Assembly: GCF_013177315.1 (NCBI RefSeq)
Contig: NZ_CP053661.1
Coordinates: 1,984,001 to 2,048,000, forward strand
From: Thermoleptolyngbya sichuanensis A183
GTDB taxonomy: Bacteria; Cyanobacteriota; Cyanobacteriia; Elainellales; Elainellaceae
Direction of reading: 5' to 3'
Length of the DNA stretch: 64,000 nt
Under the pieces are notes generated by a model that ran no database searches, was not told where the DNA came from, and saw only the letters and a list, made by a program, of their open reading frames with translations. Below, piece after piece: positions 18,621 to 26,702 of this stretch. Each line of letters starts with the position of its first letter. Position 1 is the first letter of the stretch. Made by a program: the position numbers and the translations under genes.

Positions 18621-19622
18621 ATGGGAAAGTTCTTTTCTCAAGTATGGCGGCCCCTGCTTCGGCCGCTGGTGGTTTTCTCTCTAATTGCAACATTGGTGTT
18701 TGGCAATGCAGGTAGCGCTCTGGCCCTGAGTCGGGGCGGCGGCCGCATCGGCGGCGGCGGGTTTAGCGTGCCCAGCCGCACCTATACCAGCCGTCCGGCT
18801 CCATCCTATGGCGGTGGCGGCTATTATCCCGGTGGTTATCCTGGCGGCGGCATTGGGTTTCCGCTGGTGTGGGGGCCGATTTTCTTTGGCGGCGGTGCGG
18901 GCAGCCTGTTCACCATTCTGATTTTTCTCTCACTTGCATCATTTATCGTACGGAGCGTCCGAGCCGCGCAGTCTGATGCGAATGGCTATGACGACCTGGG
19001 CTATGGCGCAGCGTCGCCCACGGTTTCGGTGGCCAAAGTTCAAGTGGGGCTGCTGTCTGGCGCTCGCGGCTTGCAGGCAGACCTGGATCGGCTGGCGAAA
19101 ACGGCGGATACGGGTTCCAAAGAGGGGCTGACGGAGGCGCTGCAAGAAACGACGTTGGCACTGCTGCGGCATCCCGAATATTGGGTCTATGGCGGCACGC
19201 AGTCGGCACAGTATCGCCTGGAGGCGGCTGAGGCACAGTTTAACCGACTGGCGCTGGCAGAGCGCAGCAAATTTAGCGAAGAAACGCTGTCGAATGTCAA
19301 CCGCCAGTTGCGGCAGGCGGGAACGACTTCGGCCGCCCTGGCCACGACGGGTACGGGTGAGCTGGTAGCGGCAGAACAGCCGACAGAAATCCAGTCGCAG
19401 GGTGAATATATCGTGGTGACGCTGCTGGCGGCAACGCTGGGCAAGCTGGATTTGCCCGTGGTGAATTCGACGGAAGACCTGCGTCGGGCGCTGTCGCAGA
19501 TGGGATCGGTGTCGAGCGATCGCCTCTTGGCGCTAGAAATTCTCTGGACCCCCCAGGTGGAGGGTCAGACCCTCTCGTCAGATGAGCTAGTCGCTGAGTA
19601 TGCTGATTTGAGATTGGTCTAG
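18621..19622 (+). CDS. DUF1517 family membrane protein
   Basis: The 333-residue protein has an N-terminal signal or anchor (about residues 14-36). A Gly/Ser/Tyr-rich low-complexity stretch with GGGGYYPGGYPGGG follows, then a membrane segment (about 93-112) and the soluble DUF1517 domain (about 140-333) with the typical EALQETTLALLRHPEYWVYGG. The family is conserved in cyanobacteria and plant plastids, and its biochemical role is not established. It is transcribed toward the fused glycosyltransferase gene, and a shared hairpin separates them. Confidence 0.88.
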   Translation: MGKFFSQVWRPLLRPLVVFSLIATLVFGNAGSALALSRGGGRIGGGGFSVPSRTYTSRPAPSYGGGGYYPGGYPGGGIGFPLVWGPIFFGGGAGSLFTILIFLSLASFIVRSVRAAQSDANGYDDLGYGAASPTVSVAKVQVGLLSGARGLQADLDRLAKTADTGSKEGLTEALQETTLALLRHPEYWVYGGTQSAQYRLEAAEAQFNRLALAERSKFSEETLSNVNRQLRQAGTTSAALATTGTGELVAAEQPTEIQSQGEYIVVTLLAATLGKLDLPVVNSTEDLRRALSQMGSVSSDRLLALEILWTPQVEGQTLSSDELVAEYADLRLV

Positions 19623-22384: not shown

Positions 22385-25300
22385 ATGCTGCGAAACCCAG
22401 AAACATCTTTCACCCTACTAGCCCTGCTAGTTGCCCTCGGCGGCGCTCCTGGTTTACTTGGACTGCGGTGGGTAGTTCCAACTCTGGCACAATCTACGCC
22501 GCCAGAATTCCCGCTGCCTGCCAGCGTTCCGGCAGACACTTCCGTTACTATAGACGGCTCTGCCAGTATGACGCTGATTAATGAAAGTCTGAAGGCCCGC
22601 TTTGAGGAACGCTACCCTGGCACCCGGGTCAACCTTGCCGCAGGCGGCACAGATGCGGCGCTACAAGCCTTACTGGCTGGAGACCTGGATCTGGTGGCAG
22701 TGGGGCGCGACCTGACCCAGGCAGAGCGGGATCAGGGATTGGTAGAGGTTCCCCTCAGCCGAGAAAAAATTGCCATCATTGTAGGCGCAGACAACCCCTT
22801 TGCAGGCGATCTGACGTTTGAGCAGTTTGCTCAGATTTTCCGGGGTGAAATTACGGACTGGTCGCAGGTTGGTGGGCCACCTGGGCCGATTCGCTTTGTC
22901 GATCGCCCTGCTTTTAGCGATACACGCCAGTCACTCAGCAACTATTCAGTGTTTCAGGCAGCGCCCTTTCAAACTGGGCCCAACGCCGAGCAGATTGCGA
23001 CAGACGACACGGCAGCAGCGGTGCAGGCGCTTGGGGCAGATGGGATTAGCTATGCTATCGCCAATCAGGTGTTGAACCGGGGTGACGTGAAGATCGTGCC
23101 CATGCACCAGACCTTGCCTACCGATCCTCGCTATCCCTTTTCGCAGCCAAGGGGCTATGTCTATCGCGGCACACCAACTCCGCCTGTGCAGGCATTTTTA
23201 GGATTTGCGACCTCGGAACCCGGTCAAGAAGTGGTAGAAGAGGCGCGTGAACAAGAAGCCACCGCAGTTGCGCCAGCGGCTCCGGTCGCGCCAGTACCCG
23301 CCACCCCCAGTCCCGTGCTGGATGCCGCGCCCACAGTCGTCACTCCACCGCCATCGAGTAATCAACCCGAAGGCTGGCTGCCCTGGCTGGCGCTGTTGCT
23401 GCTCGGAGCGTTGCCCTTCTTGCTGGGGCTATTTCGGCGGCGAGAGGCCGTGGCTCCGGTTGCGCCGCCGCTGCGCCCAGTGGCCACTGTCGCACCGCCC
23501 CGCCAAGTTCCCGCCAGCCGGATTGTGTTAACCCCGCGCAATGCCGAAGATGCCTACGCCTATTGGGAAGCGCCAGAGGCTCATAAAGCAGATCTGAAGC
23601 GCCAGGGCGGACGCGATTTGAAGCTGCGGATCTACGACGTGACGGATATTGACCTTGATCGGCAGCCCGCCCACAGCGTCCAAGAATACGATGTGGCTGA
23701 AACCGACCAGGATCGGCATGTGCCTATCATGGCGGGCGATCGCGACTATCTCGCAGAAATTGGCTACACCACCAGCGACGGACGCTGGCTGAAGCTGGCC
23801 CGATCCAACTCGGTGCGCGTGCCCACGATCCTGTCTGCGGCTGAAGCAACTCCTACTCCAGTCGTGCCGCCCGGTGTGCCGCCTGTCGTGCCGCCTGTGG
23901 TCGCTCCAGTTGTGCCGCCTCCAGCGGTATCCGTTTCTCCAACAGTGCCCGCTCCAGCACCTACCCCAGTGGAACCCAGTATGGATGAATCTGCTGTTGA
24001 TGAGCCTGATGTTGATGAACCTGTTGTAGCAACGCCAGAGCCAGAAACCCCCACTGTGCCGCCGATTGCTGCGGCTTTGGGCACGGGGGCAACGCTGGCA
24101 GCAGGCGCGGCTGCGATGGCAGCGCTGGCCAAGGAAGATGACCAGTCTGCTGTTGAAGCGGCAAAGTTTGATGTAGGGCAAACGGATCTGTCGGCTGAGC
24201 GACTGGCCGATGTAGACACGAATCTACCCGACTTGCCTGATGGCTACGGCGAGAGCCGAATTGTGCTGATGCCTCGCGATCCGCAGTGGGCCTACACTTA
24301 TTGGGATGTGCCCGACCAACACAAGGCACTACTGCGCGGTCAGGGCGGACAGCGGCTGGCGCTGCGGCTATACGACGTGACCGATATTGATGCCCATAGC
24401 CAGCGTCCCCATAGCGTGCAGCAGTACGACTGTGACGAGCTAGCCCGCGACTGGTATTTGCCCATTCCGGTGAGCGATCGCGATTATTTGGTTGAAATTG
24501 GCTATCTCACACCAGATGGTATGTGGCTGGTTCTGGCAAGATCTAATGCGGTTCGCATTCCGCCAATCTACCCGTCCGACTGGTTTGAGGATCAGTTTAT
24601 TACGCTGGGTTGGGATGAAGACCGGCGCGGCAAGACCTTCCTGCGATTGATTCCGCCAGGGCGACGAGTGGCAGACACGGGCAACCCCATCTACGACGAG
24701 ATTTTTGACATGGCCGAGTCTGCCGAGGCAATGCGTCTGGCGGGTTCGCTCTATGGTTCTATGCAGCAGGTTCCGGCCTCGGTGCAGGGTTCCCATCAGA
24801 TGGAATCGGGCGCAGCGCTGAGTTCCATGCAGGCCTCTGGGGCAGCCATTAGCAGCTACGTTCACTCAGAATCTGGGGCAGCGCTGAGTTCCATGCAGGC
24901 CTCTGGTGCAGCCATTAGCTCGTTTGTTTTCTCGGCTGAAATGGGCCAATGGTCGGGGAAAACCGAGTCTGGCGTGGGCCTATACACTGAGTCGGGTGTG
25001 GGTCGATATACCGAATCGGGCGTGGGCATGTCCGGCGTGGGCATGTCTGGCGTAGGCATGTCCGGCGTGGGCATGTCCGGCGTGGGCATGTCTGGCGTGG
25101 GCATGTCCGGCGTAGGTCGATACACCGAGTCCGGCGTGGGGATGTCGGGCGTGGGCATGTACACCATGTCGGGCGCAAGACTTTATACCGAGTCTGGCGG
25201 AGCGCTTTACACGATGTCGGGTGTGGGCCTGTACACCGAGTCGGGTGTGGGTCGATATACCGAGTCGGGCATGGGCATGTCCGGCGTGGGTATGTACAGT

Positions 25301-25963
25301 ATGTCCGGTGTGGGCATGTCCGGCGTGGGTATGTACAGTATGTCCGGTGTGGGCATATCCGGTGTGGGCATGTCTGGCGTGGGTATGTACAGTATGTCCG
25401 GTGTGGGCATGTCTGGCGTGGGTATGTACAGTATGTCCGGTGTGGGCATGTCCGGCGTGGGCATGTCCGGTGTGGGCATGTACAGTATGTCCGGCGTGGG
25501 CATGGGCTATCCGGGGCCGATGAGCTATGCGCGGATGTCGGGCGTAGGGATGTACACCGAGTCGGGCGCAGGTCTGTATACGATGTCGGGGGCTGGGATC
25601 TACAGCCAGTCGGGTGTAGGGATACCGAACTTCTCTGGCATTGGCATGTCGGGTGTTGGCTTCTTTGGTTCTATGCCGCCGATTCGGGCGCGGAAATTCT
25701 GGCTAGTGGCAGATGCAGAACTGATTATTTACGGCGCAACGGAGCCAGATGCCTCGGTGACCATTGCTGGACGGCCTGTGACACTGAATCCCGATGGCAC
25801 ATTCCGCTTCCAGATGTCCTTCCAGGATGGCACGTTGGACTTCCCGATTTTGGCGGTGGCGGCGGACGGCGTTCAGACCCGCGCGGTCCATATGCGGTTT
25901 AATCGAGAAACGCCAGAACGCCGCACTAGTACAAAGGACGAGGCGATGGATCAGCCTTACTAG
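22385..25963 (+). CDS. PstS-like/DUF4912 membrane protein with long SGVGM repeat tract
   Basis: The protein has 1192 residues. After a signal peptide it has a periplasmic phosphate-binding-type domain (about 50-290; TIDGSASMTLINESLKARF, then DLVAVGRDL). A membrane helix follows (about 329-350) and then two DUF4912 domains (about 377-490 and 622-740), each with SRIVL(T/M)PR, YxYWxxP and RLYDVTDID. Two 22-residue copies beginning ESGAALSSMQASGAAISS come next (about 806-849). A tract of about 230 residues is then built from SGVGM, ESGVGRYT and MSGVGMYS units. A beta-rich C-terminal domain (about 1095-1180; FWLVADAELIIYGATEPDAS) closes the protein. DUF4912 proteins are common in cyanobacteria but of unknown role. 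Localised phosphate sensing or scaffolding is speculation. Confidence 0.88.
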   Translation: MLRNPETSFTLLALLVALGGAPGLLGLRWVVPTLAQSTPPEFPLPASVPADTSVTIDGSASMTLINESLKARFEERYPGTRVNLAAGGTDAALQALLAGDLDLVAVGRDLTQAERDQGLVEVPLSREKIAIIVGADNPFAGDLTFEQFAQIFRGEITDWSQVGGPPGPIRFVDRPAFSDTRQSLSNYSVFQAAPFQTGPNAEQIATDDTAAAVQALGADGISYAIANQVLNRGDVKIVPMHQTLPTDPRYPFSQPRGYVYRGTPTPPVQAFLGFATSEPGQEVVEEAREQEATAVAPAAPVAPVPATPSPVLDAAPTVVTPPPSSNQPEGWLPWLALLLLGALPFLLGLFRRREAVAPVAPPLRPVATVAPPRQVPASRIVLTPRNAEDAYAYWEAPEAHKADLKRQGGRDLKLRIYDVTDIDLDRQPAHSVQEYDVAETDQDRHVPIMAGDRDYLAEIGYTTSDGRWLKLARSNSVRVPTILSAAEATPTPVVPPGVPPVVPPVVAPVVPPPAVSVSPTVPAPAPTPVEPSMDESAVDEPDVDEPVVATPEPETPTVPPIAAALGTGATLAAGAAAMAALAKEDDQSAVEAAKFDVGQTDLSAERLADVDTNLPDLPDGYGESRIVLMPRDPQWAYTYWDVPDQHKALLRGQGGQRLALRLYDVTDIDAHSQRPHSVQQYDCDELARDWYLPIPVSDRDYLVEIGYLTPDGMWLVLARSNAVRIPPIYPSDWFEDQFITLGWDEDRRGKTFLRLIPPGRRVADTGNPIYDEIFDMAESAEAMRLAGSLYGSMQQVPASVQGSHQMESGAALSSMQASGAAISSYVHSESGAALSSMQASGAAISSFVFSAEMGQWSGKTESGVGLYTESGVGRYTESGVGMSGVGMSGVGMSGVGMSGVGMSGVGMSGVGRYTESGVGMSGVGMYTMSGARLYTESGGALYTMSGVGLYTESGVGRYTESGMGMSGVGMYSMSGVGMSGVGMYSMSGVGISGVGMSGVGMYSMSGVGMSGVGMYSMSGVGMSGVGMSGVGMYSMSGVGMGYPGPMSYARMSGVGMYTESGAGLYTMSGAGIYSQSGVGIPNFSGIGMSGVGFFGSMPPIRARKFWLVADAELIIYGATEPDASVTIAGRPVTLNPDGTFRFQMSFQDGTLDFPILAVAADGVQTRAVHMRFNRETPERRTSTKDEAMDQPY
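24801..24932 (+). repeat. Tandem 66-bp duplication in the coding sequence
   Basis: Two nearly identical 66-bp units encode the consecutive 22-residue modules that begin ESGAALSSMQ. Differences are mostly at the end of the second unit. Confidence 0.85.
24965..25660 (+). repeat. SGVGM-coding minisatellite
   Basis: Dozens of 15-bp units of the type ATGTCCGGCGTGGGC alternate with TACACCGAGTCG-type and TACAGTATG-type inserts. All units keep the same frame. Synonymous differences between units (GGC/GGT, TCC/TCT/TCG) show both recent duplication and older divergence. Confidence 0.95.
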
Positions 25964-26005: not shown

Positions 26006-26572
26006 TTAAAGAGCGCGATCGCCCCGTCTCTGATTCTGGGCTGCCTGAGCGGCCTGCTCAGAGACACGCTCATAGAGCCGTTCAAGCTGCTGAAATAGAC
26101 GGCTGCTGCGGTCGATGTCGGTTTCGCAGCCGCGAATCTCTTCGGTCTTCCCGTTCGGGTAAAACCGATAGACGGCTTCTGGCCCATCGGCAGCCAGCAG
26201 GCAGAGATTTGGGATTGGATTGCGGACATTTGTCTCGCTGCGGATCTGGTCAAAATCGGCGCGGGCAATGCGCGATCGCAGTTGTTGCAGGGTTCCTCGG
26301 CGGATGCGTCCGGTGGCGCGATCGCCGACGCTGTTGGCATAGCGGTAGCTGCCGTCCGGATATATTGTCACTTCTGAAAAGCAGCCTGGCGGATAGCAAA
26401 AGCCACCCTCGCGGCGAACCGTGACCAGAGGAGTTCCGCCCTGGCTGACTGGCTGGGTCGGAGCAGGCCCATTTTGAGCAATGGATAAGCGGTTGGGTGG
26501 AGCGGCGATCGCGGCGCTGGCGATCGCCAAACACAGTCCCACAACCCCAACCGTCAATGGCCAAGTTTTCAT
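26006..26572 (-). CDS. Exported protein of unknown function
   Basis: The product has 188 residues from the ATG at 26572; this start gives a proper signal peptide (MKTWPLTVGVVGLCLAIASA) that the longer frame to 26644 would bury. The mature protein contains REGGFCYPPGCFSEVTIYPDG, a conserved-looking beta segment with two cysteines, and further cysteines at LCLLAADG and RGCETDID that may form disulfides. The tail is Gln/Arg-rich. It converges on the DUF4912 gene. No family recognised. Confidence 0.65.
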   Translation of the reverse strand: MKTWPLTVGVVGLCLAIASAAIAAPPNRLSIAQNGPAPTQPVSQGGTPLVTVRREGGFCYPPGCFSEVTIYPDGSYRYANSVGDRATGRIRRGTLQQLRSRIARADFDQIRSETNVRNPIPNLCLLAADGPEAVYRFYPNGKTEEIRGCETDIDRSSRLFQQLERLYERVSEQAAQAAQNQRRGDRAL

Positions 26573-26679
26573 CCCGAAGCCCTCACAGAAACTCAATACT
26601 GCTACTTTAAGTTCCTGCTTGCTTTGGAGTCGTGGAGTTACCAAAACTGAAACTTGCAGACCTCCGCCAGTTCAGACCG

Positions 26680-26702
26680 AGTTCAGACCGAGTTCAGACG
26701 AT
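26680..26702. repeat. Triple 10-bp direct repeat
   Basis: GTTCAGACC(G/A) occurs three times in tandem in the upstream region of the exported-protein gene. No function evident. Confidence 0.5.

Follow-up and report, generated by a model that had tools for sequence, protein, structure and literature searches.

Recurrent growth of a methionine-rich SGxGM linker in cyanobacterial DUF4912 proteins

Silk fibroin contains crystalline repeats of the GAGAGS type, and a role in binding hydrophobic clients is ascribed to the GGM tail of GroEL and to the Met-rich end of Ffh/SRP54. Elastin-like polypeptides have VPGXG as their unit (excerpt of PMC4072924), and the disorder of elastin is ascribed to a high combined proline and glycine content (excerpt of PMC5703643). 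Met-rich low-complexity domains of Pbp1/ataxin-2 form condensates that are undone by Met oxidation, according to the available text of PMC8394241, and excerpts of PMC3610870 and PMC11221513 list Sll0540 among homologues of phosphate-binding proteins. DUF4912 (PF16258) has a Pfam name that gives no function and one mention, in a paper on cotton callus, in the accessible parts of the open-licence literature. Here we describe a Gly-, Ser- and Met-rich repeat tract in a DUF4912 protein encoded within a 64,000-nucleotide stretch of the Thermoleptolyngbya sichuanensis A183 genome (the window; contig NZ_CP053661.1, positions 1,984,001 to 2,048,000), which belongs to a single contig of 5.5 Mb. The tract is a lineage-dependent outgrowth of a linker motif common to many proteins and is not confined to one. 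A preliminary description of this DNA named no described cyanobacterial protein with the motif; in keeping with this, no relevant paper on the tract or on DUF4912 function was found in the open-licence literature in so far as its text was accessible, where SGVGM matches were unrelated by title.

The tract and the linker from which it grew

The window tract (residues 860-1094; Table 1) consists of 34 units that start with SG. Seventeen are eight residues long (SGVGMYSM, SGVGRYTE, SGVGLYTE and similar), 15 are five residues long, with SGVGM occurring 12 times among them, and single units have 16 and six residues; a wider unit count gives 37 units instead of 34. SGVG occurs 28 times in the tract, compared to a mean of 0.13 and a maximum of 2 in 2000 shuffles of the whole protein, and a mean of 0.41 and a maximum of 3 in 2000 shuffles of the tract only. 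Tandem Repeats Finder (TRF) detects tract arrays independently on the DNA. The repeat tract is real, and its previously proposed limits (24965-25660) are correct to within a few bases, as is its placement, with DUF4912 on one side and a conserved C-terminal domain on the other (Pfam, alignments). The recurrence of methionine noted earlier is also borne out, with Met at residue 5 in 22 of the 34 units and Tyr mostly within eight-residue units; overall composition is 29% Gly, 17% Ser, 14% Met, 12% Val, 8% Tyr and 1.3% Pro. A second small duplication, with two copies of ESGAALSSMQASGAAISS, lies close upstream. Genome G001, from the same genus, carries a tract with 26 units versus 37 in the window by the wider count; the tract is therefore not an artefact of one genome's assembly, a concern raised in the preliminary description. 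The second DUF4912 copy and C-terminus are 95% identical between the window protein and its G001 counterpart, and their linkers (364 and 294 residues, respectively) are 88% identical over the aligned part.

Structure prediction, which had been suggested as a check, indicates a tract without secondary structure. In an AlphaFold2 model of residues 591-1192 built with 59 sequences, the predicted local distance difference test (pLDDT) reaches 95 in DUF4912 and 91 in the C-terminus (means of ten), and is about 30 over the tract, where there is neither helix nor strand. When the tract and C-terminus were modelled alone, the tract likewise had pLDDT of about 30 and no secondary structure. The tract by itself is predicted to be disordered; low pLDDT is compatible with disorder and is no proof of it. 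A beta-solenoid or other tract fold was rejected because neither model contains secondary structure there.

A search with the tract and C-terminus matched 97 of 98 genomes. This set provided 122 open reading frames (ORFs) with the C-terminal domain, from 120 fetched places and two own-genome loci; four are cut and have no readable linker, and the 118 readable linkers come from 89 genomes, the other nine genomes being not fetched, cut or without a match. SGxG units are present in all 118 linkers, which range from 83 to 398 residues with a median of three units; a basal example (L191) ends in SSYVFPSGVGMWAVPTVSGLTMSGVGMSGVGFSAS. Ten or more units occur in 24 of the 89 genomes (20 of 33 within the family of the window and 4 of 56 outside it), with a maximum of 47. 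Among 80 named loci, the best 80 of 478 and a set that leans to tract-bearing relatives, 18 have at least ten units and Spirulina sp. CCY15215 reaches 71. Unit spacing in expanded tracts is mostly five (31%) or eight (27%) residues, and unit residue 5 is Met 862 times, followed by Leu 171 times, in counts that include some genes twice. Forty-four distinct expanded tracts average 17.7% Met compared to 1.9% in the remainder of the same proteins, with 31.5% Gly, 17% Ser, 1.9% charged residues and 0.8% Pro; Cys is absent from all 44. These linkers document recurrent growth from a pre-existing SGxG seed. Other seeds have also expanded: HVPGSAQ in G013, and SSYAV in Phormidium sp. LEGE 05292, in a linker of 508 residues with two SGxG units and a repeat that lacks Met and Gly. 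Matches to the C-terminal domain were obtained in 38 of 79 genomes sampled across the phylum, 30 of 31 inside the class and 8 of 48 outside it; identity in those outside is 30-55%.

Unit codons appear to be under constraint. When units are treated as copies of one ancestor, the five unit codons have a ratio of nonsynonymous to synonymous differences (pN/pS) of 0.08-0.68 in 26 tracts from 13 genomes, where pS is about 0.5-0.7; nonsynonymous differences are fewer than synonymous ones. SG-based unit choice lowers pN/pS for two of the five codons (positions 1-2), and the range is 0.14-0.90 if only positions 3-5 are used, with the short tracts in G000 and G001 giving the two highest values. Sequence comparison thus indicates that unit residues are probably kept by selection, and that copy number appears to change by unit duplication while unit residues stay.

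Joint expansion in two paralogues and its possible meaning

The family has two recurring forms: a short form with a Rho_N-type N-terminus (Rho_N was found by Pfam in all three short forms scanned) and a long form, where one to three DUF4912 copies were detected. The window protein is a long form with a phosphate-binding-type domain. Its own-genome paralogue, encoded elsewhere on the 5.5 Mb contig (L009, 9377-10816, 479 residues), combines Rho_N, one DUF4912 and a linker of seven SGxG units with the C-terminal domain that the window protein also has; hydropathy reveals neither a hydrophobic segment nor a signal. A signal sequence, the phosphate-binding-type domain, a hydrophobic segment (about residues 332-350) and RRR precede DUF4912 and the tract in the window protein, so that the tract is predicted to be cytoplasmic. 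In 41 of 45 long ORFs, hydropathy detects a segment located after residue 200 and ahead of the first DUF4912 identified, with the following side more positive in 37 of the 41; it detects any hydrophobic segment in 2 of 149 short ORFs; these counts come from a simple 19-residue window, several genomes are doubled under unnamed and named loci, and some long-form segments are Ala/Gly-rich and possibly not membrane-spanning. The charge bias of long forms and the rarity of a segment in short forms both point to the cytoplasm, where the tract is predicted to lie.

Predicted topology speaks against the surface location that was first proposed for the tract. An extracellular elastic fibre or surface layer of the elastin or silk kind, for which Gly-rich pentapeptide periodicity could speak, is very improbable, since the tract is predicted to be cytoplasmic and has only 1.3% Pro. 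The likeness to elastin seen initially does not hold: the 2P+G index (P, proline; G, glycine) is 0.32 in the window tract, with a mean of 0.33 and maximum of 0.41 in the 44 tracts, and the unit of the window tract is not of the VPGXG type. A silk fibroin-like identity is ruled out on composition, with no GAGAGS-type repeat in the window tract.

Tract lengths in the two paralogues tend to change together. Across the 28 genomes with both forms that were examined first, unit numbers correlate (rho 0.81), but few branches carry this signal and a second family (f16) was therefore examined, in which, once length-assigned pairs are included, all eight genomes with at least ten long-form units have at least seven in the short form. 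Fifty-eight genomes were then placed on an RpoB tree, which omits the basal f16 genomes G142 and G224 and includes seven f16 pairs typed as short or long by length. At a threshold of six units, both forms are expanded in 21 genomes, the short form only in one, the long form only in one and neither in 35 (the G246 short copy is cut and has at least 13 units). Independent contrasts give r 0.52 (one-sided sign-flip p 0.005); without the seven length-assigned pairs, the counts are 17, 1, 1 and 32, with r 0.59 and p 0.003. Expanded clades comprise 11 genomes of f1, G000 with G001, and nine genomes of f16. At threshold 6, two of three long-form gains fall on the exact branch of a short-form gain (simulated chance 0.003-0.010), and with a short-form threshold of 5 all three coincide (simulated chance 0.00002-0.00012). 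G011, G012, G023, G027, G035, f3, G269 and G439 were read later, outside the pairing test. Concordant paralogue counts among them (48 and 43 in G012, 28 and at least 22 in G011, 23 and at least 34 in G023) add no independent support because these genomes belong to the same family. A general rise of Gly-Met repeats was not seen in one control, in which genome-wide GGM-repeat pattern counts have medians of 5 and 5 (22 versus 36 genomes, p 0.30).

The explanation that we tentatively place first is that the tract acts as a self-associating, low-complexity tether of the sticker-and-spacer type based on Met, Gly and Ser; we infer this because tract composition is nearly uncharged, Cys-free and dominated by these residues. 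A short SGxG-bearing linker would expand by unit duplication with its residues conserved, giving a tract that is predicted to be cytoplasmic and, alone, disordered. Like tracts would associate weakly with one another, and the membrane-anchored protein, with its periplasmic phosphate-binding-type domain, and the soluble Rho_N paralogue could thereby gather in common assemblies near the membrane. The main clue to this co-assembly step is that three separate lineages have expanded the tract jointly in the two paralogues.

Several observations weigh against a tether that joins the two paralogues. The 25 automatically assigned f16 pairs give only rho 0.40 (p 0.05), and at thresholds of 7 or 10 one of five long-form gains coincides exactly with a short-form gain. 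Removal of the top three of 57 contrasts reduces r to 0.23 (p 0.04), and of the top five to 0.10 (p 0.15), and in the first set paralogue lengths are uncorrelated across its 13 expanded genomes (rho -0.10). Discordant cases include three f3 genomes, whose short form has 11-13 units against four in a second signal-bearing copy, as well as G206, G000 and G001, with 7 and 3, 7 and 37, and 5 and 26 short- and long-form units, respectively. Genomes with a single match can also be expanded (three Spirulina, and G118 with 63 units), so a long partner is not required, and the SSYAV expansion of Phormidium LEGE 05292 is not found in its long paralogue. Sequence exchange also has to be considered. Same-genome paralogues share 12- and 15-base words above a pairing null (p 0.002 and 0.009), exact 24-mers are shared in two genomes, and amino-acid words, too, are a little more similar within genomes (p 0.01-0.02); some exchange or common codon use may thus connect the paralogues. 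Plain gene conversion is disfavoured because no exact 30-mer is shared by both paralogues' tracts in 13 genomes of the window's set (f16 being outside this comparison), and the excess of shared 12-15-mers is weak.

A neutral or near-neutral spacer is a serious, if somewhat less probable, alternative to the tether. The linker would be prone to duplication and would tolerate any soluble flexible filler, with length having little function. Lineages have expanded different seeds of one linker (SGxGM, SSYAV, HVPGSAQ), unit number varies widely within a single genus (43, 39, 28 and 18 in the long forms of g12), and the median linker stays at three units, all of which a spacer would allow; low pN/pS inside tracts, the narrow composition of 44 tracts and joint expansion in two unlinked paralogues argue against it. 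Confidence in the tether goes no higher because a spacer explains seed variety and length turnover almost as well.

A Met-bristle surface, in which flexible Met side chains would bind hydrophobic clients, is unlikely. A Gly-Met pattern scan of 388 genomes matched 55, and 30 loci were fetched. Sixteen of these are members of the present family with the SGxGM form, one of them cut short of the C-terminus, and 12, by sequence, look like tails of other proteins, nine of GroEL and three of Ffh, a likeness that would favour client binding; the remainder are one DUF4912 protein with a MAGIG stretch and one ORF of 62 residues. The window protein, however, has no chaperone domain among its Pfam matches, and the SSYAV tract lacks Met.

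The tether might be extended to a repeatedly evolved SGxGM 'velcro' by which a membrane phosphate-binding-type receptor and a soluble Rho_N protein, of a nucleic-acid-binding type, co-assemble as submembrane condensates. Photosynthetic oxidants would dissolve these condensates via Met oxidation, thereby linking nutrient sensing and redox to a nucleic-acid-bound protein. This extension is speculative and decidedly improbable.

Architecture and neighbourhood

The window protein matches DUF4912 over two stretches (261.3 bits, cut-off 29.4) and PF12849 (PBP_like_2; 121.3 bits, cut-off 27) in Pfam. The TIGR02136 PstS subfamily model of NCBIfam gives 92.8 bits, which is below its cut-off of 206.6. 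Among PDB sequences, the closest solved chain to the N-terminal domain is Sll0540 (9l8j; 240 residues aligned, E 4e-60). PstS ligand residues appear only partly kept, judged by eye in the 9l8j alignment.

Table 1. Features of the window protein, in window positions
Feature	Position	Strand	Basis
ORF, 1192 residues: signal, phosphate-binding-type domain, transmembrane segment, two DUF4912, tract, C-terminal domain	22385..25963	+	ORF listing, Pfam
Predicted signal sequence, hydrophobic from about residue 7, end near TLAQ	22385..22492	+	hydropathy; cleavage site inferred
Phosphate-binding-protein-type domain (PF12849), residues 49-278	22529..23218	+	Pfam E 8e-35; PDB E 4e-60
Predicted transmembrane segment (about residues 332-350), then RRR	23378..23434	+	hydropathy
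DUF4912, first copy, approximate limits	23500..23830	+	Pfam, profile scan
DUF4912, second copy; fibronectin-III-like fold in model	24245..24589	+	Pfam, AlphaFold2 model, fold comparison
Predicted helix ahead of linker repeats	24686..24757	+	AlphaFold2 model residues 178-201
ESGAALSSMQASGAAISS duplicated stretch within linker	~24803-24925	+	sequence; TRF array 24812-24912
SGVGM / SGVGxYxx tract, 235 residues, 34 SG-units, predicted disordered	24962..25666	+	TRF, unit count, AlphaFold2
Conserved C-terminal beta-sandwich domain, about 90 residues	25682..25948	+	alignments, models, fold comparison

The modelled DUF4912 domain mainly resembles fibronectin-III (best match 8fn8, with Z 9.6 and a root-mean-square deviation (rmsd) of 3.5 across 94 residues), a predicted likeness of fold without functional meaning. 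For the C-terminal domain, the best fold match has Z 6.5 and rmsd 2.2 over 62 residues (2yn3); many immunoglobulin- and CBM48-like sandwiches match, hence no fold-based assignment was made, and Glucodextran_B (Pfam) scores below its cut-off. No solved relative of the DUF4912-linker-C-terminal domain region was found by sequence at E up to 1.

Other forms occur in the family. L400 (G439, contig C277) is a long form of 1535 residues that combines six DUF4912 copies with a short linker, and its host genome has an SSYAV tract in the short form. Three f3 genomes have a third form of about 420 residues (L406, L407, L408) with a signal-like N-terminus, DUF4912 and the C-terminal domain, with no room for a phosphate-binding-type domain and an unexpanded linker. 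Family f32 has second, long copies with diverged C-terminal domains, and in G135, G207, G236 and G126 of this family long copies contain in-frame stops, which gives the impression of a decaying long form. No family-wide operon was found, the commonest neighbour family being present at 17 of the 80 named loci. A likely sugar ATP-binding cassette transporter set (binding protein, permeases, ATPase) follows the short-form gene, nearly always on the same strand, at L126, L135, L136 and others, in up to 12 of the 80 named loci, with representatives in Microcoleus and Oscillatoriales.

Within the window, an 11-base tandem present three times at 26669-26699 (GTTCAGAC plus a CGA spacer) lies upstream of a minus-strand gene that ends at 26006 and adjoins the phosphate-binding-type gene. 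Its 8+3 layout resembles that of cyanobacterial Pho boxes, although the letters differ. A DUF1517 protein at 18621-19622 has a Gly/Tyr-rich stretch close to its N-terminus.

Likeness to and difference from known systems

The family is matched in nearly all sampled genomes of the class without a function having been found, and its linker has repeatedly grown into long, regular Met-rich tracts, in several lineages in two paralogues together. This natural series, from 2 to 71 units, could be used to test repeat number against bacterial low-complexity protein assembly, and is a first handle on the role of DUF4912 proteins. Should the tract be no more than a tolerant spacer, it would nevertheless provide a clear example of linker growth that recurs and favours particular motifs.

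The window protein is a member of the cyanobacterial DUF4912 (PF16258) proteins, with its long SGxGM linker outside the domain. Its N-terminal domain, of the phosphate-binding type by profile, aligns with Sll0540 over the 240 residues; unlike in Sll0540 and PstS, the domain shares its chain with a hydrophobic segment, copies of DUF4912 and a tail predicted to be cytoplasmic. The pentapeptide-repeat family gave no Pfam match at E up to 1, in a search where HMMER filters drop most weak matches. The tract shares a pentapeptide period with Gly-Val-Gly with elastin-like polypeptides (VPGXG), but its unit lacks Pro, ends in Met and is predicted to be intracellular. The GGM tail of GroEL and the Met-rich tail of Ffh are Gly-Met-rich repeats like the tract; those tails are short and near the C-terminus, whereas the tract is a centrally placed linker that can reach 71 units. 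The yeast Pbp1/ataxin-2 domains offer an analogy in that they may be compared to the tract as likewise Met-rich and of low complexity: with 14% Met in the window tract, a mean of 17.7% in the 44 tracts and pLDDT of about 30, it has the composition and predicted disorder of such segments. Unlike Pbp1/ataxin-2, the window tract is composed of regular SGxGM units.

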